IMG/VR virus record: IMGVR_UViG_3300047383_000800
Coordinates: 1-39,639 of that record
Reading direction: 5' to 3' (one strand)
Source: a virus
DNA: 39,639 nucleotides
Shown: piece by piece, positions 3,748 through 39,537 of the stretch
How the letters are laid out: each line of letters begins with the position of its first letter
How positions within the stretch are numbered: the first letter of the stretch is position 1
Translations under genes and position numbers: made by a program
Notes under the pieces: generated by a model
The model's database searches: none
The model's input: only the letters and a program-made list of their open reading frames with translations
What the model was told of the DNA's origin: nothing

Positions 3748-5574
3748 ATGAGCGATTACGTAGGAGATAATATGTGGATTCCGAAAGGAGACAAAAGCGA
3801 TCCTGGTCAAAAGCTAGTATGGTCAACTAAGAATGTTAATGACCTTTTAGTAGCACTAGATAAAGGATATCGTCCACAGGTTTCTATGCCATTTTATGAA
3901 GGTAAGCAGTTCTTACGTAAAGGTAATATTGTATTTGAATACACTGAAGAAGAAATTACAGAGTTAGCTAAATGCGCAAATGACATCGTTTATTTTGCAG
4001 AAAAATACGCAGTAGTAATGACGGATGAGGGTATTCAACAAGTAAAGCTTAGGGAATATCAGAAAGAATTATTACACGATTTTCAAAACGAAAGATTTAA
4101 TATTGTTCTTGCTTCTAGACAAATGGGTAAAACCGTAACTGCTTCTATTTTTAACGCATGGTATTTGACCTTTAATTACGATAAGACAACTTTATTATTA
4201 GCTAATAAATCTGACTCAACGAAAGAAATTATAGATAAAGCAAAGGTAGTTATTGAAAACCTTCCTTTCTTTATGAAGCCTGGAATTATTAAATATGACG
4301 TAATGAACGTGCGTTCAGATAATGGGTGTAGATTAGTTGGACAGTCAACTACTGCAAAATCAGGTATTGGATTTACAATTCATAATTTATATCTTGATGA
4401 GTTTGCTCACGTCCATCCAACAATAGTAAATTCATTCTATGAAAACGTATATCCAACGCTCTCAGCTTCAAAGGTATCGAGAATTAACATCACTTCAACT
4501 CCAAATGGTTTTAATAAGTTCTATGAAATATACGCAGCTGCCGAAAGAGGAGATAATGAATATAAAGCTACGAGGATCGATTGGTGGCAACACCCTGACA
4601 GAAATGATGAGTGGTATAAAAGAGAACTTGGAAATTTAGGTTCTGAAGAAGCGTTCAATAGACAATATGGAAATGAATTCGTAAGTTCTTCTAATCTATT
4701 ATTAAGCCCAATGGTTATGAAAACCATGAGAAAGAATTCACATGAATTTGTATGGCACGATTTAGAAGATTTTGAAAATATACAAATAGACACTAAAGGA
4801 TTCCTAGGATTTCATAAAGATTTTGATCCTGAAGAAGCAAGGGACTCTCAGCGATTCTTTTTGTTTTCAGTAGACATTGCAGAAGGCAACGGAGGTGATT
4901 ACTCGGTAATTAATATTTTTGAAGTAGAACCAATGGAAGATAAAGATATAATTGATTCTGTGACACCCGGTGCAATGTATGATTTTTTTAGATTAAATCA
5001 AGTTGCAGTGTTTAGGTCTAACGAACACGTAATTGAAGATTTTGCAAAAGTATTATATACGCTAGGTGTTGAAATATTTAATCCTGAGAATATTAAGATG
5101 ATTATAGAATTTAATACGTACGGTTCTATTCTATTAAAATATCTACAAACAGTTTACCCTTCTAGAAATGAATTTGAAGACGAGATGGTTTTAAGATTTA
5201 AACATAGACACGATTCAAGAGCATTAAAACCAGGTATAAAATTAAAAGCCGATAATAAATCTGTATTTTGTCAAAACTTTAAAAAATTAATTGAAAATAA
5301 TAGAATAAAAATTAATGACACAGAGACAGTAAATGAAGCTAGTTTATTCGGTAGTCTTAGAAATGGCAGTTATGGTGCACAGATGGGAAATGACGATATA
5401 ATTATGACCGGAATTACTGCTACGGAATTTTTTGGAACTACAGACTATGCAGACTACATCGAAGAACTTTTAGATTTTATAGACAAAGAAAAGTACGAAT
5501 TAATGGAAAAAATACTATATCAGCAAAATGATTCAGCAGGAGATATGCAATATGATATTTATGACCTGATATAG
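3748..5574 (+). CDS. terminase large subunit (gp17-like packaging ATPase/nuclease)
   Basis: This motor protein translocates DNA into the prohead and cuts concatemers. It has 608 residues, against 610 in T4 gp17. The ATPase half shows Walker A SRQMGKT at 123-129, Walker B LYLDE at 214-218 and coupling motif TSTPNG at 249-254. The nuclease half has the acidic triad of an RNase H-like fold: SVDIAEG (D376), IIEFN (E454) and GNDD (D549/D550). All catalytic residues look intact. It starts two bases after the small subunit stop in a TAATAATG context, implying translational coupling. Confidence 0.95.
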   Translation: MSDYVGDNMWIPKGDKSDPGQKLVWSTKNVNDLLVALDKGYRPQVSMPFYEGKQFLRKGNIVFEYTEEEITELAKCANDIVYFAEKYAVVMTDEGIQQVKLREYQKELLHDFQNERFNIVLASRQMGKTVTASIFNAWYLTFNYDKTTLLLANKSDSTKEIIDKAKVVIENLPFFMKPGIIKYDVMNVRSDNGCRLVGQSTTAKSGIGFTIHNLYLDEFAHVHPTIVNSFYENVYPTLSASKVSRINITSTPNGFNKFYEIYAAAERGDNEYKATRIDWWQHPDRNDEWYKRELGNLGSEEAFNRQYGNEFVSSSNLLLSPMVMKTMRKNSHEFVWHDLEDFENIQIDTKGFLGFHKDFDPEEARDSQRFFLFSVDIAEGNGGDYSVINIFEVEPMEDKDIIDSVTPGAMYDFFRLNQVAVFRSNEHVIEDFAKVLYTLGVEIFNPENIKMIIEFNTYGSILLKYLQTVYPSRNEFEDEMVLRFKHRHDSRALKPGIKLKADNKSVFCQNFKKLIENNRIKINDTETVNEASLFGSLRNGSYGAQMGNDDIIMTGITATEFFGTTDYADYIEELLDFIDKEKYELMEKILYQQNDSAGDMQYDIYDLI

Positions 5575-5633: not shown

Positions 5634-8324
5634 ATGGCACTAAGTCCTCAATTATTACAATTCAAGAGTTCAGGCGTTTACAGATTAGAATTTGATAAAT
5701 CTCAAACAGCTAACATTGACGTATCTACTCTTAGACTGGTTGTTGGTCACTCAAGAAAAGGACCTTATAATACACCAGTATTAATCGAAAACGTTGAAGC
5801 TTTCATTCAAGTGTATGGAAACATTGACAAGTCGTTAGAGAAAAAAGGAATGTTCTTTCATAGATCAGCACAGGCTGCTCTTTCAAGAGGTCCTATCTTA
5901 GCTCTTAACCTTGCAGGTTTTGATTCAAATGATGTAGCTTCAGCTATACAAGTTTCAACGAACGGATCTTACTCTACTGAAGCAGTGATGGAAAGACCAG
6001 CTGGAAATACATGGGTAGCAGGAGATGCTATTCCTGGTACTGGATCACCTGAACAGGCTCCATTAGCAACTTCTATTTCAGATGCGGCACCAGCTACACT
6101 TTCAGTAGACGGTTTAACTTTAACATTAGCAGGTGTAGATTTAACATCTAGCCTACAAGGTACTTTCTATTTACTTTCAGATGCAGGTAGCGAACCTCAT
6201 ATCGCAGCAAGTGCTCAATTTGACGGTACCGATACTGTGATTACAGCAGCAGCTATTATTAATTCAAATCATGAAGATACTTCAACTAGCTTTAATATTT
6301 ATGATATGGCATCGACTATCGCTGAAGTATTACCAGACACATACTCAGAAGCTGATGTAACTGCAGACTTTACTGTTGCAACATATCCTGAATTAGGTCA
6401 TCAAACTGGAGACTATCCTTATGCTAGTTTCTTTGACACTGACAAATTTATGATTCCTTCTGATGAAAAGGTATTACAAACTTTAAATGCAGGTCCAGAT
6501 TATACTGATCCTAATCAGGTATTAAACTTTGTAAACATCAAACAAACACCTATCACAGTTTTTTCAAGAAAAGCTCAAGATACTGCAGGATTTGATATTA
6601 CTGCAAGAGAATGGTATGGTGAAGGAAATGTTCCAGCATATTTAAATGACAAAGATTTAATGTCAGATTACATGATAGATGTATTTGTATTCAAAGGTTC
6701 TTTTGATGCAGCTGCAATGGATACGGACCCAGTTTACGGATATTACTTTGATAGTAAAGGTTTAAGAAAAGATTTATTAGAACAATTTGCAAACTTAAGA
6801 CAAGTTGAAATGATAGGTTCTTATACTGGTTCTATGCTTCCAGGTTTTAAAGACTTAGAAGGAAGAAACATGTATGTTGAAACAATGATTAACGCTGAAG
6901 CTAGAAGAACAGGTTTATTCTGTGCAATCGATGAAATTTCAGTAACTGATGAATCAGCTGAAACTCCAATTGATTTAGTTGGACACACATTCAATGAAGG
7001 TGCACAAGATCAAGTGGTATTATCATATGATATTCAAAACAGATCTCACGCAGTAGATATGACAGATGTTGTATATTCTGCAAATGGAACAGATGCAGTC
7101 TTTACATATAGTGGAGCTGGTAGCTTTTCACCTGAATTCAAAAAAGGAAACTACTTTAGAAGTGGAGACAGATTAGTTTTAATTTCTCAAGTAATTAGAT
7201 CTACTTCAGGTGCAAACACGGTTTATACTGTTAAATTAACTGAAGCTGCTCCAGTAGTATTTAATGGATTCTATGTAGAATCTTTAGAAGATGCAGCGGT
7301 TTCATACGCTCCATTTGTATTAAATGGCGCCGTGATTGAAGGAGAAACTATCAATTCATGTTTAGAAGCAATAAAAGTAGGAACAGGTTTAGCTACAGGT
7401 TTAGTAGATAAAGATGCAATCGACTTCAGATACATTGTTGATACATTCGCTTCTTTTGATGGACAACTAAGAAACAAAATACAATTATCTCAATTAGCAA
7501 AAGAAAGACAAAATGCGTCAGCTATCTTAAACGCTCCAATGATAAAGGACTTTAAAGCTTCGACTGACCCTTCATTTACTTCTTCTTTTGATGGATCATT
7601 CCAAACTTCATTTATTCCAGATGGAGGTAATTTAGATAAAAACCCAACATCACTATACACATTACCAAGTATCGCAGATGGTGCAAATTATGCATTCTAC
7701 TACGGACCTGGTCTTATTGTAAGAGAAAATGGAAAAGACGTAATGGTTCCACCAGCTGCGTATGTATCTAATAATTACATAGACAAATACACAGACGCTT
7801 TACCATGGTCAATCGTTGCTGGTCCAAGAAGAGGTGTTGTTGCTGGAACTAATGTTGCAGGAGCTGAATACTCTTTTGACAAAGCAGACAGAGACATTCT
7901 AGAGCCATTCGGATATAACCCAATCGTATTCCAAAGAGGAGTTGGTTTAACTATCTTAGGAAATAAAACTGCACAGCAGTCTATTAAATCATCGCTATCT
8001 TCAGCTCACGTTAGAGAAGTGTTAATTTACATTCAAGATGCAATGGCAGATATTCTTAAAGATTACGTATTTGAATTTAATAATGCACAAACTCGTTTAG
8101 AAATAAAAACTCTAGCAGATTCATTAATGGAATCTATTAGACAAGATGGTGGTGTTTATGACTTTAAAAACGTAATGGACCAATCAAATAACACAGGTGA
8201 AGTAATTGATAACAACATAGGTATCATAGATACATTTGTTGAGCCAGTTAAAGGTTTAGAAATAGTTGTACATAGAACAACAATTCTAAATACTGGTGAA
8301 ATTTCAACCGGAAACTTTAGTTAA
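5634..8324 (+). CDS. contractile tail sheath protein (gp18-like)
   Basis: The sheath subunit polymerises around the tail tube and contracts to drive it through the envelope. The protein has 896 residues, longer than T4 gp18 (659). The N-terminus (PQLLQFKSSGVYRLEFDKS, VVGHSRKGPYNTPVLI) is the usual start of myovirus sheath proteins, and the C-terminus has the conserved helical and beta elements (REVLIYIQDAMADILKDYVF, then GLEIVVHRTTILNTGEIS) that interlock neighbouring subunits. The extra length lies in the middle (about 110-260 and 430-560), expected to be surface-exposed insertions. It is followed by the tube gene, as in T4. Confidence 0.92.
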   Translation: MALSPQLLQFKSSGVYRLEFDKSQTANIDVSTLRLVVGHSRKGPYNTPVLIENVEAFIQVYGNIDKSLEKKGMFFHRSAQAALSRGPILALNLAGFDSNDVASAIQVSTNGSYSTEAVMERPAGNTWVAGDAIPGTGSPEQAPLATSISDAAPATLSVDGLTLTLAGVDLTSSLQGTFYLLSDAGSEPHIAASAQFDGTDTVITAAAIINSNHEDTSTSFNIYDMASTIAEVLPDTYSEADVTADFTVATYPELGHQTGDYPYASFFDTDKFMIPSDEKVLQTLNAGPDYTDPNQVLNFVNIKQTPITVFSRKAQDTAGFDITAREWYGEGNVPAYLNDKDLMSDYMIDVFVFKGSFDAAAMDTDPVYGYYFDSKGLRKDLLEQFANLRQVEMIGSYTGSMLPGFKDLEGRNMYVETMINAEARRTGLFCAIDEISVTDESAETPIDLVGHTFNEGAQDQVVLSYDIQNRSHAVDMTDVVYSANGTDAVFTYSGAGSFSPEFKKGNYFRSGDRLVLISQVIRSTSGANTVYTVKLTEAAPVVFNGFYVESLEDAAVSYAPFVLNGAVIEGETINSCLEAIKVGTGLATGLVDKDAIDFRYIVDTFASFDGQLRNKIQLSQLAKERQNASAILNAPMIKDFKASTDPSFTSSFDGSFQTSFIPDGGNLDKNPTSLYTLPSIADGANYAFYYGPGLIVRENGKDVMVPPAAYVSNNYIDKYTDALPWSIVAGPRRGVVAGTNVAGAEYSFDKADRDILEPFGYNPIVFQRGVGLTILGNKTAQQSIKSSLSSAHVREVLIYIQDAMADILKDYVFEFNNAQTRLEIKTLADSLMESIRQDGGVYDFKNVMDQSNNTGEVIDNNIGIIDTFVEPVKGLEIVVHRTTILNTGEISTGNFS

Positions 8325-17619: not shown

Positions 17620-17846
17620 TGGGAATAGAAGGATTATTTTTAACAATTTTCTTAGGAGCATTTGCATTCGTAATGGGATGGATGAAAGGATGTGAAGACG
17701 AGCAATCGAGAATTAGAGAAGCTTTCAGGTCAGAAGAATATGACTATGAAGGCTTCTTTAACGTTCTTGAAAAATATGAAGAGGAGAAGGAAGCCGCTAA
17801 ACAATGGGCTAAGTTTAATAAAAAAAGAAAAAAAAATCAAAAATAA
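17619..17846 (+). CDS. small single-pass membrane protein
   Basis: 75 residues: a hydrophobic N-terminal helix (GLFLTIFLGAFAFVMGW, 5-21) followed by an acidic and then Lys-rich coiled tail (EKYEEEKEAAKQW, ending in a poly-Lys run). The stop-start overlap with the preceding gene indicates coupling. It could act at the membrane but shows no further signature. Confidence 0.6.
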   Translation: MGIEGLFLTIFLGAFAFVMGWMKGCEDEQSRIREAFRSEEYDYEGFFNVLEKYEEEKEAAKQWAKFNKKRKKNQK

Positions 17847-17857
17847 ACAGCCTAGAA

Positions 17858-17908
17858 TTTTTTTATCTCAGAAATTTTGCTTATATTAGTAGAGTAATAA
17901 TTAATAAA
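17858..17908 (+). promoter_or_regulatory. promoter-leader cassette, copy 2
   Basis: Same cassette: T-run, ATCTCAGAAATTTTG, TATATTAG at 17882-17889, then GTAGAGTAATAATTAATAAA. It is preceded by the AACAGCCTAGAA block seen in several other copies. Confidence 0.75.
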
Positions 17909-17918
17909 AGAAACCATT

Positions 17919-23477: not shown

Positions 23478-24011
23478 ATGCAAATATTCGTAACATCGAA
23501 CCAACAGTTCGGAAGACCTGGGGCTATCAAAAAATACGATAGACCCTTTTCGTCTCTTGAAGAGATGGATAAAACTTTAATAGAAAACTGGAATTTAACA
23601 GTTTCTGAAAATGACGTAGTATATGTCCTTGGTAATTTTGGATGGGATCCAACTACGGTTGAAAAATGTATAAATTCTTTAAATGGACATATTTATTTTA
23701 TAGAAGGAGAATTTGATAAAGCCACTGTTGACGTAAGTATGCTCCCGAACGCAGAAAATAAAATTGAAGAAATAGGTCAAATTGATTTTATCGGAGAATT
23801 TGATACATGTTTAACATATTGGCCTTTATCTATCTGGCCAGGAAAGTACTTATTAACTGGACATCCTTCTAATAGAATAAAGACGAGCCCTTCTAAGAAA
23901 ATTATAAATGTCTCATGTGACAAATGGTCATATAAACCGGTTAACATAAAATCTATCATAGGACTATTTGAAGAAAATAATTCTGAAAAAAATGAAAAAA
24001 AGTCTGTATAA
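23478..24011 (+). CDS. metallophosphoesterase-like protein with lost catalytic residues
   Basis: 177 residues with the scaffold of a phage calcineurin-like phosphoesterase (start TSxxxFG, RPFSSLEEMD, W-N-L-T-V-S-E-N-D-V-V-Y-V-L-G, SLNGHIYFIEG, YWPLSIWPGKY, NVSCDKWSYKPV). But the metal ligands are replaced: usual S-D-x-H-F-G-H is S-N-Q-Q-F-G-R (7-13), usual GD is GN (52-53), usual GNHD is GEFD (77-80), usual HGHxH is TGHPS (127-131). It is therefore probably a pseudoenzyme or has a new role. It begins 2 bases after the previous stop and ends at cassette copy 3. Confidence 0.75.
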   Translation: MQIFVTSNQQFGRPGAIKKYDRPFSSLEEMDKTLIENWNLTVSENDVVYVLGNFGWDPTTVEKCINSLNGHIYFIEGEFDKATVDVSMLPNAENKIEEIGQIDFIGEFDTCLTYWPLSIWPGKYLLTGHPSNRIKTSPSKKIINVSCDKWSYKPVNIKSIIGLFEENNSEKNEKKSV

Positions 24012-24012
24012 A

Positions 24013-24060
24013 TTTTTTTATCTCAGATATTTTGGTTATATTAGCCTAGTAATAATTAAT
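24013..24060 (+). promoter_or_regulatory. promoter-leader cassette, copy 3
   Basis: T-run, ATCTCAGATATTTTGG, TATATTAG at 24037-24044, CTAGTAATAATTAATT leader. It drives the sigma-factor gene, so the sigma factor might regulate its own class of promoters; this is inference. Confidence 0.75.
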
Positions 24061-24083
24061 TAAAAACCTAAAAAACATAATCT

Positions 24084-24683
24084 ATGGCAAGTTACAAACA
24101 ACTTACGGACAATTTCCTACAAACAAAATCAGACCAAGACTTCGCAAAACTATATAATAAAATCAAACCAGGCCTAACTTCTTATATTTACAAGATAGTT
24201 AAAGATTCAGAAATGGCAGAAGATATTGCTGTGAATACTTTAACTAAAATGTGGACTAAAATCGAACAATATAACCCTAGCTATGGAATTACAACTTGGC
24301 TATATCGTATTGCTTTTAATGATTCTTTAGGTTACATTAAAAAAAGAAACCAAACTACTTCTCTTAGTAAACTTGCAGAATATGGCGTAGAAGTAAATGA
24401 ATCTGGCGCAATGTCAAGTAGTATTAAAGATCTTGTAAATGAATACGAAGAAATGACAGAACAAGATTATTTAGAAGAAGATAATGCCCTTCAAGAAAAA
24501 TATAAAAAGACACTCGATGCAATGCAAAACTTAAAAGAAATGTATCGAGATATTCTCGTAGATAGAATGATTAATAATATGAAATATGATCAATTAGCTA
24601 TTAAATACAATCTTCCTCTACAGACAATTAAAAATAGAATTCGAAGAGGTAAAGCTTTAATCGTTGAAGCCGTAGAAAAATAA
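24084..24683 (+). CDS. ECF-like RNA polymerase sigma factor
   Basis: 199 residues. Region 2: FAKLYNKIKPGLTSYIYKIV, AEDIAVNTLTKMWTKIEQY, ITTWLYRIAFND, followed by the KKR basic end (about 18-90). Region 4: LKEMYRDILVDRMINNMKYD, QLAIKYNLPLQTIKNRIRRG (about 150-195), a helix-turn-helix that contacts -35 type elements. It would redirect the host core RNA polymerase to phage promoters, probably the virion-gene class, like T4 gp55 in role though not in sequence. It is transcribed from a cassette promoter. Confidence 0.85.
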   Translation: MASYKQLTDNFLQTKSDQDFAKLYNKIKPGLTSYIYKIVKDSEMAEDIAVNTLTKMWTKIEQYNPSYGITTWLYRIAFNDSLGYIKKRNQTTSLSKLAEYGVEVNESGAMSSSIKDLVNEYEEMTEQDYLEEDNALQEKYKKTLDAMQNLKEMYRDILVDRMINNMKYDQLAIKYNLPLQTIKNRIRRGKALIVEAVEK

Positions 24684-24991: not shown

Positions 24992-25118
24992 TAATTTAGA
25001 TGAATGGGATGAAGAGTTTTATGAAAATAAACCCAGGAAAAGTAAAAAATTACCTAAAATGAAAGATATTGAAAAGTCAATGGCCAGCAAAAAAAGAAGA
25101 AATAGTAAAAATAATTAA
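24978..25118 (+). CDS. tiny basic protein
   Basis: 46 residues: an acidic-aromatic start (MNWRNNLDEWDEEFYENK) then a strongly basic tail (KSKKLPKMKD, SKKRRNSKNN). It ends just before cassette copy 4. Probably nucleic-acid or polymerase binding by charge, but unproven. Confidence 0.45.
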   Translation: MNWRNNLDEWDEEFYENKPRKSKKLPKMKDIEKSMASKKRRNSKNN

Positions 25119-25125
25119 CAAAATA

Positions 25126-25176
25126 TTTTTTTATCTCAGAAATTTTGCTTATATTAGCTAAGTAATCAATCAATAA
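25126..25176 (+). promoter_or_regulatory. promoter-leader cassette, copy 4
   Basis: T-run, ATCTCAGAAATTTTG, TATATTAG at 25150-25157, then CTAAGTAATCAATCAATAAA. It starts the deoxyribonucleotidase unit. Confidence 0.75.
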
Positions 25177-25181
25177 AAAAA

Positions 25182-25739
25182 ATGAACCAACAAGAAACAT
25201 CAATAGATAGATTAGTATCTAAGCCTGAAACCGCAACGGAAAAGGCGATAGACACTCTATTTTCTGTTTTATGTTCTTCTTCTAAAAGAAGCAAGAAGAT
25301 AGTTTATGTGGATATGGACGGTGTTCTAGTAGATTTACACGCAAAACTTAGGGAATATCCTGAAGAAATTGTAAAATCTGTAGGAAACGATATTGATAAA
25401 TTACCAGCTCTTTTCTTAGATCCTCCCCCCATGGAAGGTGCGGTTGAATCATTTAACATTCTTTGTTCTTTATTCGACGTATATATTTTATCTACTGCAC
25501 CATGGGATAATCCAGAAGCTTTAATGCATAAAAGGTTATGGGTTGAAAAGTATCTTGGAAAAAATGCATATAAAAGATTAATTTTATCTCACAATAAACA
25601 TCTTAACATCGGTGATTATTTAATCGACGATAGAGTTGCAAACGGAGCAGGTCAATTTACAGGAGAACATATTCATTTTGGAACAGAAAAATGGCCAGAT
25701 TGGAAATCTACACTAGATTATCTTATACCTCGTGCTTAA
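25182..25739 (+). CDS. 5'(3')-deoxyribonucleotidase-like HAD phosphatase
   Basis: 185 residues. KIVYVDMDGVLVDLHAKL carries the HAD nucleophile pair (D44, D46), LFLDPPPMEGAVESF and VYILSTAPWDNPEAL match the pyrimidine deoxynucleotidase (NT5C) family, followed by LILSHNKHLNIGDYLIDDRV with the acid pair of motif IV. It would dephosphorylate dNMPs and help balance pools with guanylate kinase. An N-terminal 35-residue extension precedes the domain. Its end overlaps the minus-strand gene by 17 bases. Confidence 0.82.
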   Translation: MNQQETSIDRLVSKPETATEKAIDTLFSVLCSSSKRSKKIVYVDMDGVLVDLHAKLREYPEEIVKSVGNDIDKLPALFLDPPPMEGAVESFNILCSLFDVYILSTAPWDNPEALMHKRLWVEKYLGKNAYKRLILSHNKHLNIGDYLIDDRVANGAGQFTGEHIHFGTEKWPDWKSTLDYLIPRA

Positions 25740-26100: not shown

Positions 26101-26191
26101 ACAATATATATCTGATATATAATTTAAGCCCACGTCAGAACGCTGACACTTAACTTCTTGGGCAAGAAACTCAAACAATTTTTAAAATAAA
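26101..26191. promoter_or_regulatory. divergent intergenic region with nested inverted repeat
   Basis: Between the minus-strand peptidase-like gene and the plus-strand secreted protein. An inner hairpin GTCAG-AACG-CTGAC (26134-26147) sits inside GCCCA (26128-26132) and TGGGC (26159-26163). ATATATAT-like boxes on the minus strand precede the peptidase gene. Could be an operator or RNA structure for either side. Confidence 0.45.
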
Positions 26192-27289
26192 ATGATGAAA
26201 CGTATATTCATCGCATTGCTAGCACTGTATGGTTTTATAATCCATGGGCAATGCGCACCTGACGCTATAGTAAATAACATAGAAATACAGACAGGATGTG
26301 TTGGGGATATTCCAGTATATAATGTAGAATACACTGTTCTTAACATAGGTGACGAGCCTATTACCGAATACTGTATTGAAATATGGAATGAAGATTATTA
26401 TCAATGTTTTGACAGTGACCTATTTGGTAGTTATGAAATACCACCAGGGGAGGGTCAACTATTTGCTACACAATTCTTTGAATTTACTGGAAATCTAGGA
26501 GGCTTTTTTGTAGTTTCAGTAGATAGCGTTAATGATGAAATCATAACAGGTAATAATAACACAACGGTCTATTATCCAGTAGAATGGGAAGAATGCCCAA
26601 TCGAATGCACACCGGATACTGTTGAAGTTTTAACGTATATTTACCAAATAGATTCTATTTTTACCACAATATATGAAACAGATACTCTTTTTGTTGAATT
26701 ACCCAATGATACTGTTATTGAATACGTAGACAACTTTATTACAGATACCCTTTATATAGAAACAATTGATACAGTATACGTTGATGTTGAGGTTTTCGTT
26801 ACTGACACTATTACAGAAATAGAATACATCACAGAATATGTTACCGATACTCTTTTTATTACAACTGTTGACACTATCGAAGTGATCGTATATGAATTCT
26901 TAACAGATACGGTTTATGAGTATATTTCTATTGATTGTGAAACAGGATTAGAATGTATTGAAGATCCGGGTTTGACATGCCCTGATTGGACGAGTGTTTA
27001 TATTCCTAATACCTTTTCACCAAACGGAGACGGATATAATGATACATGGGAAATGATATACGACCTAGAATGCTGGGTTGATGTAGAGTTTAAGGTGTTT
27101 AATAGATGGGGAGGTTTAGTCTATGAAGGAAGAGGAGATTCCTTTGATTCATATCCATTTTGGAATGGAAGTGTAAACGGAGGAAGCTATTACGTAGCAG
27201 ATGGAATTTACATATATACGTTTTATGCGAGAAAAATAAACTCAGTAGAAATATTTAGAAGAAATGGACACATTTCAATATTTAGATAA
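26192..27289 (+). CDS. secreted protein with gliding-motility/type IX sorting C-terminus
   Basis: 365 residues. Signal peptide (MKRIFIALLALYGFIIHGQC). A beta-sandwich N-terminal domain (CARDB/Ig-like, about 25-140). Residues about 145-245 are low-complexity acidic beta repeats with recurring DTL/DTV/DTI (TDTLFVELPNDTV, DTLYIETIDTVYV, TDTITEIEYI). The C-terminal 91 residues (FSPNGDGYNDTWEM, VFNRWGGLVYEG, ADGIYIYTFYARK) are a CHU_C/TIGR04131 gliding-motility C-terminal domain, the export and attachment signal for the type IX secretion system of flavobacteria. It would be delivered to the host surface. Highly unusual for a phage. Confidence 0.8.
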   Translation: MMKRIFIALLALYGFIIHGQCAPDAIVNNIEIQTGCVGDIPVYNVEYTVLNIGDEPITEYCIEIWNEDYYQCFDSDLFGSYEIPPGEGQLFATQFFEFTGNLGGFFVVSVDSVNDEIITGNNNTTVYYPVEWEECPIECTPDTVEVLTYIYQIDSIFTTIYETDTLFVELPNDTVIEYVDNFITDTLYIETIDTVYVDVEVFVTDTITEIEYITEYVTDTLFITTVDTIEVIVYEFLTDTVYEYISIDCETGLECIEDPGLTCPDWTSVYIPNTFSPNGDGYNDTWEMIYDLECWVDVEFKVFNRWGGLVYEGRGDSFDSYPFWNGSVNGGSYYVADGIYIYTFYARKINSVEIFRRNGHISIFR

Positions 27290-27316
27290 AATAATTTGAA
27301 AAAAGTCAGCCTAAAA

Positions 27317-27368
27317 TTTTTATTTGTCACCGGAATTGGTTATATTAGTAGAGTAATAATTAATAAAA
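27317..27368 (+). promoter_or_regulatory. promoter-leader cassette, copy 5
   Basis: Variant form: TTTTTATTTGTCACCGGAAT, then TGG, TATATTAG at 27341-27348 and GTAGAGTAATAATTAATAAA. The -33-side block (TTTGTCACCGG) differs from copies 1-4 but is shared with copy 6. Confidence 0.75.
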
Positions 27369-27374
27369 CAAACC

Positions 27375-27662
27375 ATGTACACAGAACTTTCAAAAAGAAA
27401 CAGAGAATTACTTTTAAACGGAGCAAAAACAACAGGATCCTTTACAGAAGGATATTACTATATTGAAGAAAGCCTATATAGCGATGAAGCTAGTGAGCTT
27501 TATTCTTTTTGTGAATGGATCGACAATATCATTGGAGGTGCAGGCCCTGCAAACATTTCTACTTTATGGTTAGGATTTAAATATCCTGAGGTAGATGCAT
27601 TTTCTGAATCTTGTGTCTACATAAAAAAACAGATGGACAAAATTAAAGCATACTCCATATAA
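27375..27662 (+). CDS. small hypothetical protein
   Basis: 95 residues, acidic and Tyr/Glu-rich (YYYIEESLYSDEASELYSF, then CEWIDNIIGGAGPANI), no membrane helix. First gene of the unit started by cassette copy 5. Function unknown; overlaps the next start by one base. Confidence 0.6.
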   Translation: MYTELSKRNRELLLNGAKTTGSFTEGYYYIEESLYSDEASELYSFCEWIDNIIGGAGPANISTLWLGFKYPEVDAFSESCVYIKKQMDKIKAYSI

Positions 27663-29039: not shown

Positions 29040-29125
29040 GCCGGAGTGGTGGAATTGGTAGACACGAGGGACTTAAAATCCCTTGGACAGTAATGTCCGT
29101 GACGGTTCGAGCCCGTCCTCCGGTA
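29040..29125 (+). tRNA. tRNA-Leu (UAA)
   Basis: Acceptor GCCGGAG (29040-29046) pairs with CTCCGGT (29118-29124), with a G-U at the outer end. Anticodon TAA in CTTAAAA (Leu, UUA codons). Long variable arm. No encoded CCA. Confidence 0.93.
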
Positions 29126-29130
29126 CAACA

Positions 29131-29256
29131 TAGAATAGAAAGAGGCAAAGGTAAATTCCCATACAAGTGTATTAATACAATGGGTTCGGCCGAAACAGCG
29201 CAATCTAAGAAGGAGACTGACGAGTCCGCGCTTAAGGGTAGCTTCTATTCTTACTT
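29131..29256 (+). ncRNA. structured non-tRNA RNA inside the tRNA cluster
   Basis: A nine-base outer stem, AGAATAGAA (29132-29140) with TTCTATTCT (29243-29251), encloses several hairpins: CCCAT/ATGGG (29158-29162 with 29180-29184) with an inner TGTA/TACA, a palindromic TTCGGCCGAA (29185-29194), AGCGC/GCGCT (29197-29201 with 29228-29232) and GACT/AGTC around a GACG loop (29215-29226). A T-run follows (29255-29260). It sits 6 bases after tRNA-Leu and 24 bases before tRNA-Arg. T4 makes non-tRNA stable RNAs in its tRNA cluster, but no homology could be checked here. Confidence 0.6.
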
Positions 29257-29283
29257 TTTTAAATCAATATAATTTTATCGAAT

Positions 29284-29360
29284 GGACCAGTAGCTCAGCT
29301 GGATAGAGCATCTGCCTTCTAAGCAGACGGTCACAGGTTCGAATCCTGTCTGGTTCACCA
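29284..29360 (+). tRNA. tRNA-Arg (UCU)
   Basis: Acceptor GGACCAG (29284-29290) with CTGGTTC (29350-29356), discriminator A, encoded CCA (29358-29360). Anticodon loop CTTCTAA gives UCU (AGA codons). Confidence 0.95.
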
Positions 29361-29361
29361 T

Positions 29362-29435
29362 GGACTTTTAGCTCAGTTGGTTAGAGCACCGCACTCATAA
29401 TGCGTAGGTCGTAGGTTCGAGCCCTACAAGGTCCA
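29362..29435 (+). tRNA. tRNA-Met (CAU), or CAU-type
   Basis: Acceptor GGACTTT (29362-29368) pairs with AAGGTCC. Anticodon loop CTCATAA gives CAU. Elongator Met is most likely because an Ile(UAU) tRNA follows; lysidine-modified Ile2 is an alternative. No CCA encoded. Confidence 0.9.
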
Positions 29436-29439
29436 CTTA

Positions 29440-29512
29440 GATCTCTTAGCTCAGTTGGTAGAGCATCACACTTTTAATGTGAGGGTCCAGGGTTCGAGCC
29501 CCTGAGGGATCA
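29440..29512 (+). tRNA. tRNA-Lys (UUU)
   Basis: Acceptor GATCTCT (29440-29446) pairs with AGGGATC (29505-29511). Anticodon loop CTTTTAA gives UUU (AAA codons). No CCA encoded. Confidence 0.95.
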
Positions 29513-29520
29513 CAATATAT

Positions 29521-29594
29521 ACTCTTGTAGCTCAATCGGTTAGAGCAGGATCCTTATACGATCAAGGCTATGGGTTCAAGTCCCGTCAAGAGTA
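29521..29594 (+). tRNA. tRNA-Ile (UAU)
   Basis: Acceptor ACTCTTG (29521-29527) pairs with CAAGAGT (29587-29593). Anticodon loop CTTATAC gives UAU, which reads AUA without lysidine. D and T arms are normal; the 27-43 base pair is mismatched (G-A). No CCA encoded. A UAU Ile tRNA is rare in bacteria. Confidence 0.88.
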
Positions 29595-29606
29595 CAGAAA
29601 GAGGAG

Positions 29607-29930: not shown

Positions 29931-30166
29931 ATTTTAATGAAGAACAGATAAACAGAATTATAGAAATGGCATGGGAAGATCGAACCCCGTTTGAAGCCAT
30001 AGAATTTCAATTTGGAATTAAGGAAAACGGAGTTAGAAAAATAATGAGGAAGCATATGAAAGAATCCTCATTTAAAATGTGGAGAGAACGTGTAAAAGGA
30101 AGAAAAACTAAACATAATAAAACTAGCGAATCTAAAAGATTTAAATCGCAAAATCAAAAAAACTAA
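29927..30166 (+). CDS. DUF2805/TIGR03643 family protein
   Basis: 79 residues from the ATG at 29927 (overlapping the previous stop by 4 bases); an in-frame ATG at 29870 adds a 19-residue stretch that lies wholly inside the previous gene. EEQINRIIEMAWEDRTPFEA, then IEFQFGIKENGVRKIMRKH and SSFKMWRERVKGRKTKH match this small Bacteroidetes family, which has a helix-turn-helix-like shape. It overlaps the MarC gene by one base. Confidence 0.85.
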   Translation: MNFNEEQINRIIEMAWEDRTPFEAIEFQFGIKENGVRKIMRKHMKESSFKMWRERVKGRKTKHNKTSESKRFKSQNQKN

Positions 30167-30759
30167 TGGAATTTATTTTAAACGTATTAACTGTCTTTTT
30201 GACACTTTTTGCCGTCATTGATATGCCAGGTAACGTTCCTCTCGTCATTCGTCTTAGAAAAGAAAACGGAGAAATAGAAACAGCTAAATCTACAATCGTT
30301 GCAACCATTATTATGGTTTCAATTTTATTTATAGGTGATTTATTATTTAAACTATTAGGTCTAGAAGTGTTTCATTTTGCTTTAGCAGGTTCTATGCTTC
30401 TCCTCTATTTTGGTGTTAAAATGGTTTTAGGAATTGAATCTGAAACTTCAAGTGAACCAATGCCTCCTTCTATTTTTCCTATTGCTTTCCCAATTATTGC
30501 AGGACCAGGTACTTTATCCACTATTATATCATTAAACCAAGATTTTTCTACACCAACTATTATAATCGCTATTATCGCAAACGCAATTGCTATTTTTGCT
30601 TTCTTAAAATCAGCTGATTGGATTCAAAGAAAACTTGGTAAAGTAGGTCTAACGATTATGGAAAGAGTTTTTGGAATTATTCTAATCGCAATAGGTATGA
30701 AAATTTTAATTAACGCAATGGTGTTAAGTATTAATCATGCTCTTCAAATGATAGGATAA
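30166..30759 (+). CDS. MarC family membrane protein
   Basis: 197 residues with six hydrophobic segments. FLTLFAVIDMPGNVPLVIRL, KLLGLEVFHFALAGSMLLL and FPIAFPIIAGPGTLSTII are characteristic of MarC. Function of the family is unsettled. It is tightly linked to the DUF2805 gene (1-base overlap) and to an acidic 74-residue gene downstream. Membrane cargo of this kind is rare in phages; it may have come from the host. Confidence 0.88.
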   Translation: MEFILNVLTVFLTLFAVIDMPGNVPLVIRLRKENGEIETAKSTIVATIIMVSILFIGDLLFKLLGLEVFHFALAGSMLLLYFGVKMVLGIESETSSEPMPPSIFPIAFPIIAGPGTLSTIISLNQDFSTPTIIIAIIANAIAIFAFLKSADWIQRKLGKVGLTIMERVFGIILIAIGMKILINAMVLSINHALQMIG

Positions 30760-31545: not shown

Positions 31546-32256
31546 ATGAAAGTATACGTATTTGACGTAGATGGAACATTAACACCAAGTAGATTAACAA
31601 TAGATCCTAATTTTAAGAAATTCTTTTTAGAATGGATGAAAAACAAAAAGGTAATTTTTGTTACAGGATCAGACAAAGATAAAACCATAGAGCAAATAGG
31701 GTTAGATGTATGGAATGAAGCAGATGCATGTATGCAGTCATGTGGAAATCATATATTTGTCAAAGGAGAAGAGGTTTCTAGAAATCCATGGGAGGCAGAT
31801 GAATCTTTAATCGCTCTTTTAGAACAATTTTTGGTAATTTCTAAATATAGAAAAAGAACTTCGAACCACATCGAGCACAGAATAGGTCTTTGTAATTTTT
31901 CAGTAGTTGGAAGAGATTGTTCTCAAAGAGAAAGAGAAGACTACGCAGAATGGGATGATTTCAATAAGGAAAGATTAGATATGGCACAACTTATTAATGA
32001 AAACTTTCCTGAATTAGAAGCTTCAGTTGGTGGTCAAATCTCAATAGACATACACCCTAAAGGAGCAAATAAGAGTCAAGCTAAGAAATGGATCTTAGAA
32101 AATATAGGTAAAGATACCATTATAAAATTTTATGGAGATAAAACCGAAAAAGGAGGTAACGATTATGACTTAGCAAAAGTATTAGAAGCTCCACATGAAG
32201 TATATCAAGTAAAGGATTGGAAAGAAACTTATAATATATTAAAAAATGATAATTAA
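31546..32256 (+). CDS. eukaryotic-type phosphomannomutase (HAD IIB)
   Basis: 236 residues. KVYVFDVDGTLTPSR (D7, D9), FVTGSDKDKTIEQIG, IEHRIGLCNFSVVGRDCSQR and ASVGGQISIDIHPKGANKSQ, then FYGDKTEKGGNDYDL are the hallmarks of the eukaryotic PMM family (HAD IIB), which converts mannose-6-P to mannose-1-P. Length is near that of eukaryotic PMM (about 250). It is not the bacterial PMM/PGM fold. It would feed a GDP-mannose-like sugar pathway, parallel to the rmlC and epimerase genes. Confidence 0.88.
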   Translation: MKVYVFDVDGTLTPSRLTIDPNFKKFFLEWMKNKKVIFVTGSDKDKTIEQIGLDVWNEADACMQSCGNHIFVKGEEVSRNPWEADESLIALLEQFLVISKYRKRTSNHIEHRIGLCNFSVVGRDCSQREREDYAEWDDFNKERLDMAQLINENFPELEASVGGQISIDIHPKGANKSQAKKWILENIGKDTIIKFYGDKTEKGGNDYDLAKVLEAPHEVYQVKDWKETYNILKNDN

Positions 32257-33917: not shown

Positions 33918-33960
33918 CGGGGATTAAATTGAAAATAATTTGAAAAAAAGCAGTAAAAAA

Positions 33961-34010
33961 TTTTTATTTGTCGCCGGAATTGGTTATATTAGTAGAGTAA
34001 TAATTGATAA
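33961..34010 (+). promoter_or_regulatory. promoter-leader cassette, copy 6
   Basis: TTTTTATTTGTCGCCGGAAT, TATATTAG at 33985-33992, GTAGAGTAATAATTGATAA. It starts the unit that ends with the ligase. Nearly identical to copy 5. Confidence 0.75.
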
Positions 34011-34020
34011 CAGATAACAA

Positions 34021-39461: not shown

Positions 39462-39535
39462 GGGGAATTAGCTCAGCTGGCTAGAGCGCCTGCCTTGCAC
39501 GCAGGAGGTCATCGGTTCGACTCCGATATTCTCCA
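39462..39535 (+). tRNA. tRNA-Ala (UGC)
   Basis: Acceptor GGGGAAT (39462-39468) pairs with ATTCTCC (39528-39534), with one G-U. Anticodon loop CTTGCAC gives UGC. No CCA encoded. Confidence 0.95.
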
Positions 39536-39537
39536 CT

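Follow-up and report, generated by a model that had tools for sequence, protein, structure and literature searches.

A myovirus fragment was found to encode a type B (gliding-adhesin class) substrate of the type IX secretion system (T9SS) that belongs to a family of proteins from marine phages whose N-terminal heads are exchanged as cassettes and whose export domain and RNA leader are kept. We propose that this phage-encoded, adhesin-like protein is displayed on the outer surface of the host cell, where its heads would exclude rival phages; for this chain as a whole we put the chances at about even.

Genomic setting of the T9SS gene

The window, that is, the whole stretch of DNA analysed here (39,639 bases), is virus record IMGVR_UViG_3300047383_000800; the record is classed as linear, so that the window is probably a fragment. 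Profile matches identified the following two genes, based on which the window is part of a myovirus.

3748-5574: terminase large subunit (profile match on the window)
5634-8324: contractile tail sheath (profile match on the window)

The T9SS gene is located 17 kb beyond the sheath gene, with non-structural genes around it. Its neighbours on both sides are common to the close relatives in a conserved order of sigma factor, NT5C-type nucleotidase, small minus-strand gene, T9SS gene, 95-aa gene and SWIM protein. The window also encodes an ECF-like sigma factor (24084-24683), a MarC-family membrane protein (30166-30759) and a phosphomannomutase-like HAD enzyme (31546-32256), and contains eight tRNA genes (14485-14652, 29040-29595 and 39462-39536), five of which form one cluster just past the T9SS region. 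Between genes, an 88-nt repeat (core TTGSTTATATTAG) is present in six copies, each just upstream of a plus-strand open reading frame; the exact core occurs six times in the window and on the plus strand only, and the repeats are probably a set of phage promoters. No such core directly precedes the T9SS gene, the nearest one upstream being at 25145.

16539-16626, 17829-17916, 23984-24071, 25097-25184, 27288-27375 and 33932-34019: copies of the 88-nt repeat

Identification of a type B sorting domain, a predicted signal peptide and a stalk

The T9SS gene occupies the position given in the original prediction (26192-27289, plus strand, 365 aa) and its product can be divided as follows.

26192..27289, plus strand: whole gene for the phage-encoded T9SS type B substrate of 365 aa (open reading frame and profile matches)
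26192..26251, plus strand: N-terminus resembling a Sec signal peptide, about 20 aa (hydropathy; cleavage inferred after ...HGQ)
26255..26593, plus strand: head module B, predicted Ig-like (CARDB-like) beta sandwich, aa 22-134 (predicted structure)
26594..26929, plus strand: acidic DT-repeat stalk, aa 135-246, net charge -25 (composition; low confidence in the model)
26930..27286, plus strand: C-terminal part, aa 247-365, carrying the type B sorting domain (CHU_C at aa 271-346)

The C-terminus had been predicted to be of the CHU_C/TIGR04131 kind, and HMM searches exceeded the curated cut-offs of both models: Pfam CHU_C (PF13585) matched aa 271-346 with 51 bits (E 1.6e-13, cut-off 27), and NCBIfam TIGR04131, named 'T9SS type B sorting domain-containing protein', matched with 39.5 bits (E 4.6e-10, cut-off 35). 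The domain sits at the extreme C-terminus (hmmscan match at aa 271-346/348 of 365) and, in a profile search of the genome, the match reached 83 of the 85 model positions. TIGR04131 matched none of 14 control genomes at the default threshold; when the E limit was set to 1, five of the 14 gave weak matches, all below the cut-off. The agreement of two curated models supports assignment of the protein to the type B (gliding-adhesin) class and upholds the original claim of a type IX secretion substrate with a gliding-motility C-terminal domain. Residues invariant in the family alignment A1 were P272, N273, P277, N278, D280, G281, N283, D284, N304-G307, W324, G338, Y340, G359 and R365, the last residue of the protein. 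According to a study of type B domains, five conserved motifs (A-E) in them are needed for secretion (PMC12618676).

A signal peptide had also been predicted, and charge and hydropathy bear out a signal-peptide-like N-terminus, with a net charge of +2 followed by a hydrophobic core (10-residue mean hydropathy 2.5) and the end ...HGQ. By the same two measures, such an N-terminus was present in 13 of 14 family proteins read from the first ATG, and in the fourteenth, L026, if a GTG start is used. The middle region had been described as an acidic, DTV/DTL-repetitive beta stalk. Its acidic, repetitive character was evident, since aa 135-246 contain no K or R and nine DT[VILF] motifs; 2,000 shuffles gave 0.93 on average and never more than 5. 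A folded beta structure, however, was not supported by the AlphaFold2 model, in which the stalk had a mean pLDDT of ~21-31 and hardly any regular structure.

CHU_C was the sole Pfam match of the window protein up to E 1, leaving it without SprB repeats (PF13573), which the same Pfam library detected in a huge-phage protein, and without a known carbohydrate-binding domain; Por_Secre_tail was not found by Pfam either. The type A sorting domain, TIGR04183, had no match anywhere in the window record.

Predicted structure

The AlphaFold2 model of the window protein, built with 15 family sequences, was weak overall (mean pLDDT 52); it shows a beta sandwich spanning residues 25-127, pLDDT values of ~60-77 over most of the head, and strands in the C-terminal domain. 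A Foldseek search of the PDB with this model gave a best E of 1.1e-3 and no hit under 1e-3; the CARDB structure 3idu_A was among the top PDB matches for the head (E 1.9e-3, 20% identity). After re-ranking, the head matched Ig-like domains of many unrelated proteins with Z of 9-10. In the model the head thus appears to be an Ig-like sandwich, a common fold that carries no functional hint. The 541-aa protein of L002 likewise gave a weak model (mean pLDDT 52.2); in the re-ranked PDB list for this model, head B is covered, and A and B together only loosely. Sequence searches for solved structures returned none for the window protein and none for the family profile A1.

Family and distribution of the T9SS gene

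Relatives of the window protein were found at 29 viral loci in a search of viral contigs, and CHU_C was above cut-off in 24 of these 29 records, the five others including contigs that end inside the gene. L028 and L029 have only the stalk in common with the window protein and lack CHU_C. Judged from the translations, the family architecture runs from a signal peptide through one or two head modules and a DT stalk to an [ID]C-TGL-C element, which is followed by the type B domain; no complete copy has an internal stop. At the locus L024, the family gene is directly followed by a second type B gene (11152-12042, 296 aa), the head of which resembles module A by eye.

Terminase identity to that of the window was 95-96% in eight records, 73-74% in four and 23-32% in seven; a terminase match was absent in 10 of the 30 records searched. 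Even in distant phages such as L008 and L024 the T9SS protein is 51-57% identical, and as the terminases of such phages are only 23-32% identical, the gene has probably moved between phages.

Fifty terminase relatives with contigs of at least 20 kb, from 80 loci, were searched for the gene. In the closest clade (terminase at least 95% identical), all 14 contigs that reach the site carry it. It is complete in seven (the window, G001, G016, G018, G019, G020 and G022), and in the other seven (G003, G026, G032, G033, G034, G035 and G037) the contig ends inside the gene and has no CHU_C match. Repeated assembly breaks inside one gene are to be expected if the population holds several recombined versions. 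A further 13 contigs with terminases 93-100% identical were too short or wrongly placed for the site, as judged by their extent and the position of the terminase. Outside the closest clade, CHU_C was above cut-off in none of the 36 other terminase relatives, whose contigs are fragments, and the gene is therefore not needed by the whole phage group.

The window protein had two matches among 50,697 records of deposited phages, each in a genome larger than 630 kb that carries no annotation; a search with a generic bacterial type B domain gave three. Type B proteins of 1670 and 832 aa were noted in the huge phages L219 (LR756502.1, 642 kb) and L218 (LR745206.1, 635 kb), respectively, the former with 13 SprB repeats.

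Exchange of head cassettes

The relatives L002 and L017 are 95.9% identical in DNA along a 9.4-kb stretch that ends at base 9 of the gene, where the alignment breaks off; the heads are unalignable in DNA, and the alignment resumes at the stalk with 96.7% identity onward. At the protein level, the C-terminal parts are identical (119 of 119 residues) and the N-terminal parts agree at 63% of the aligned residues, so that phage-encoded cargo is strongly variable between close phages. The opposite case is seen in L017 and L022, which come from phages with terminases 95% and 73% identical to that of the window and yet have 302 of 306 residues N-terminal of the domain in common. Taken together, the head swap between L002 and L017 and the N-terminal part shared by L017 and L022 indicate that the unit of exchange is the head and not the whole gene. 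The heads comprise A and B in L002, B alone in the window protein, a divergent A in L017, and A, a short linker and a different B in L023. As read from these sequences, the heads were exchanged recently compared with the time over which the genomes diverged. The presence of swapped heads on a constant display frame would suggest recognition under pressure to vary. Head swapping fits superinfection exclusion or another recognition role and singles out neither; cassette exchange is likewise expected of host-range proteins, adhesins and any antigens.

A conserved 5' leader RNA

Upstream of the start codon, a conserved leader was identified that folds into an outer stem and a tight hairpin (z -2.17 for the window sequence).

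26128..26163, plus strand: conserved 5' leader RNA (covariation, compensatory pairs)
26128-26132 with 26159-26163, plus strand: outer stem of the leader (fold and covariation)
26134-26138 with 26143-26147, plus strand: inner hairpin of the leader, loop 26139-26142 (fold and covariation)

Across eight distinct sequences, 95% of 80 cells were paired, a percentage that leans towards the structure because the latter was read from the window fold, and 13 cells were changed on both sides, double changes that do not come from one sequence. The covariation score was 0.432 compared with 0.160 in shuffles, none of 500 of which reached 0.432, and covariation was lost when the partners were slid by 1-3 columns. 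One outer pair was seen as CG, AU, GC, GU and UA, and the outer A-U pair at the base of the stem fails in four of the eight sequences. The leader alignments (A5/A6) were built from longer stretches. Where paired cells depart from Watson-Crick pairing, they are G-U as read on the plus strand, which points to a plus-strand RNA rather than a DNA palindrome.

A degenerate leader pattern found 17 stretches in the whole viral collection; with the window included, all 18 leader matches lie 28-31 nt before the start codon of the T9SS gene, which is complete to the domain in 10 and stops at the contig end in eight. The leader is kept with the gene despite different upstream neighbours in L016 and L022, and is missing at the distant carriers L005, L008 and L024. 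At the gathering threshold, Rfam matched only the eight tRNAs of the window and nothing at the leader, and membership of a known riboswitch or RNA family was discarded after a relaxed Rfam search gave a meaningless snoRNA match (E 2.2). The leader probably controls translation or timing of the T9SS gene.

Bacterial relatives, shuttle and predicted export route

The nearest bacterial C-terminal domain belongs to a 677-aa CHU_C protein on a Flavobacteriales UBA1993 chromosome (L138) and is 50% identical. In a tree of the domain, a starred group (99) contains 13 of the 15 phage sequences and one bacterial sequence, that of L138; L026 and the second copy of L024 fall outside it. A single clade of all phage sorting domains was not recovered, yet was not rejected (p-AU 0.341) in this tree, which is weak with 101 columns only. 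Among 80 bacterial loci, several match the query from residue 158-212 onward, corresponding to stalk and domain. Hosts with the machinery are plentiful, since all 35 genomes of the bacterial family of UBA1993 match CHU_C, with many domains each.

Type B substrates depend on PorP/SprF shuttles, to which they may remain attached (PMC12618676, PMC9143113); on the cell surface, PorP-like proteins are their binding partners, and the named substrates are adhesins such as SprB (PMC9143113). The shuttle (PF11751) was found in none of 30 phage records, and the same search matched all five Bacteroidota genomes used as positive controls, with 5-19 matches each. In bacteria, the type B genes of L142 and L208 are each followed by a gene that resembles a shuttle by its translation, consistent with PF11751 matches in both genomes. 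An adjacent shuttle gene is described as common and not required; in F. johnsoniae, three of 12 type B substrates are encoded away from a shuttle and have one orphan shuttle in common (PMC12618676). Phages that lack a shuttle would presumably borrow that of the host and, given that orphan substrates are known, the likely path leads through host Sec, host T9SS and host shuttle to the surface. Export to the host surface is likewise predicted from the combination of signal peptide, type B domain and a nearest C-terminal relative encoded in a Flavobacteriales chromosome. Based on these sequence features, an infected cell is likely to display a phage-made protein on its surface. Mutations in gld/spr (T9SS) genes of F. 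columnare confer phage resistance (PMC9233685), and the T9SS-dependent surface thus matters to phages.

Other phage-encoded T9SS cargo

Several further phages were observed to encode T9SS cargo of type A. L126 and L127 (G045 and G067), with terminases ~80% identical to that of the window, carry a gene for a collagenase-family (Peptidase_M9) protein that ends in a type A sorting domain, for which there was no match among deposited phages. L032, L034 and L035 encode a 245-aa protein with a cohesin domain and a type A domain; it has a ~49-50% identical relative, L220 (NC_055915.1 gp015), in the cultured Flavobacterium phage immuto, in which gp015 is annotated merely as cohesin domain-containing and a C-type lectin gene is located two genes upstream. 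In L031 and L033, a long protein with GCTDP...NYNP...DDGSC repeats ends in a C-terminal type A domain, which in L033 is below the Pfam cut-off; it is followed by a secreted, possibly outer-membrane protein of 347-369 aa that has no Pfam match and by a 94-aa membrane protein.

Proposed role and alternatives

The following mechanism is proposed. The Sec signal peptide would direct the protein to the periplasm, where, going by domain membership and published work, the type B domain would be taken by the host T9SS translocon and the substrate handed to a host PorP/SprF-type shuttle, the phage having none of its own. The protein would then be surface-anchored, with the acidic DT stalk holding out one or two small Ig-like heads. 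Exchange of the heads among phages, with export domain and leader kept, is the step seen in the sequences themselves, and the leader RNA would probably govern translation or timing of this one T9SS gene. In the last and least certain step, the displayed head may alter binding to the infected cell, most likely excluding competing phages; this might occur by masking, or by competition for export and for space on the surface with receptors that the host T9SS delivers. Superinfection exclusion would be the leading role for displayed heads because the T9SS surface matters in F. columnare and because exclusion has been proposed for type A cargo of Cryophage (see below); we hold this role less firmly than the chain as a whole.

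A more far-reaching reading is offered tentatively and with clearly less confidence, namely that marine Flavobacteriales phages of lytic type possess a cassette display system in which exchangeable heads decide which rivals are excluded, an analogue of antigenic variation. The constant frame, made up of the leader RNA, the signal peptide region, the stalk and the type B export domain, would hijack the route by which the host exports gliding adhesins, and the heads would give the infected cell a new surface.

The best of the competing explanations, which we nevertheless consider rather doubtful, is that the protein is displayed via the T9SS as an auxiliary adhesin that benefits the infected cell or its dispersal through adhesion to particles or cells, aggregation or altered gliding, and does not serve to exclude phages. 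It is supported by bacterial proteins with the same architecture of DT stalk and CHU_C, agrees with the adhesin nature of the type B substrates in the literature, and is in keeping with the cohesin and collagenase-like cargo and the C-type lectin neighbour of similar phages, which have the look of substrate or cell binding; the window protein, however, has neither an SprB repeat nor a known carbohydrate-binding domain.

It is unlikely that activity resides in the export domain, which would saturate or poison the shuttle or translocon of the host and so block the export of host surface receptors or gliding adhesins, with the head of minor importance. Conservation of the export domain amid varying heads would fit this, as would the lack of a cognate phage shuttle, which would leave host shuttles occupied, and the phage resistance that accompanies T9SS loss in F. 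columnare (PMC9233685). Folded heads of 110-390 aa are nevertheless kept and repeatedly exchanged, which suggests that the heads do something.

More improbable still is a virion protein of fibre-like or decoration type, in which the CHU_C-like sandwich would be a folding end and not an export signal. Although fibres, too, typically have acidic repeats and swapped heads, the family has a signal-peptide-like N-terminus, the gene lies amid non-structural genes far beyond the sheath, and the C-terminal domain groups with a bacterial chromosomal protein. PHROGs gave no match at all, and hence no phage fibre family with a better fit, one of the two findings that the original prediction had named as speaking against it.

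Contamination of the viral contig by a host gene, or a decaying passenger gene, is hardly credible: CHU_C proteins do abound in hosts, as in all 35 genomes of the nearest bacterial family, but the gene is found at the same place, flanked by phage genes on either side, in many viral contigs that were assembled independently, a synteny that rules out host contamination or an isolated curiosity, its nearest bacterial domain is only 50% identical, and complete copies are free of internal stops.

If surface display with heads directed against rival phages is correct, abundant marine phages reprogram the outer surface of Bacteroidota via the host's export route for gliding adhesins, and exchangeable heads and a dedicated leader RNA would serve this reprogramming. 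The published type A case would be extended to the type B, PorP/SprF-dependent route, and superinfection exclusion by surface display would become testable in lytic-type phages, for which the natural head variants on an otherwise constant export frame provide a ready-made experiment.

Comparison with known systems

A search of the open-licence PMC literature found no paper on a phage-encoded type B cargo family, and none in the open-licence PMC literature describing the protein of Virus NIOZ-UU157. Two viral proteins with the same C-terminal domain as the window protein, A0A7S9STS8 of Virus NIOZ-UU157 (Foldseek/BFVD E 1.1e-18, 28% identity) and A0A6J5NJX2 (Foldseek/BFVD E 4e-6), are annotated as 'Gliding motility-associated C-terminal domain-containing protein'.

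The UBA1993 protein of L138 is similar in its C-terminal domain (50% identical), whereas the stalk and heads of the phage proteins are unrelated to the rest of L138, as seen on inspection of its translation. Bacteroidota type B substrates such as SprB and PG1035 share with the phage protein the C-terminal type B domain, the signal peptide and the predicted PorP/SprF shuttle. They differ from it in that the latter is phage-encoded, with no shuttle in 30 phage records, and, in the case of SprB, in that the window protein lacks SprB repeats.

The one direct predecessor found is Cryophage (Bellas et al., 2020; PMC7468147). In that study, phage-encoded type A T9SS cargo is highly variable between variants, the proteins with the sorting domains are an endoglucanase, a GH39 protein and a PA14 protein, and superinfection exclusion or competition is proposed. 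The present family resembles this cargo in its phage-encoded T9SS sorting domain, strong variation and hijacking of the host machine. Compared with the Cryophage cargo as described there, it differs in having a type B domain, no enzyme domain, an acidic DT stalk that bears a non-enzymatic Ig-like head, cassette boundaries mapped at the DNA level and a gene-specific RNA leader. Phage-encoded T9SS cargo as a concept is thus already known (PMC7468147), as are domain-named viral proteins in databases; new within the literature searched is a type B family with a constant frame, cassette boundaries, a missing shuttle and a leader RNA.
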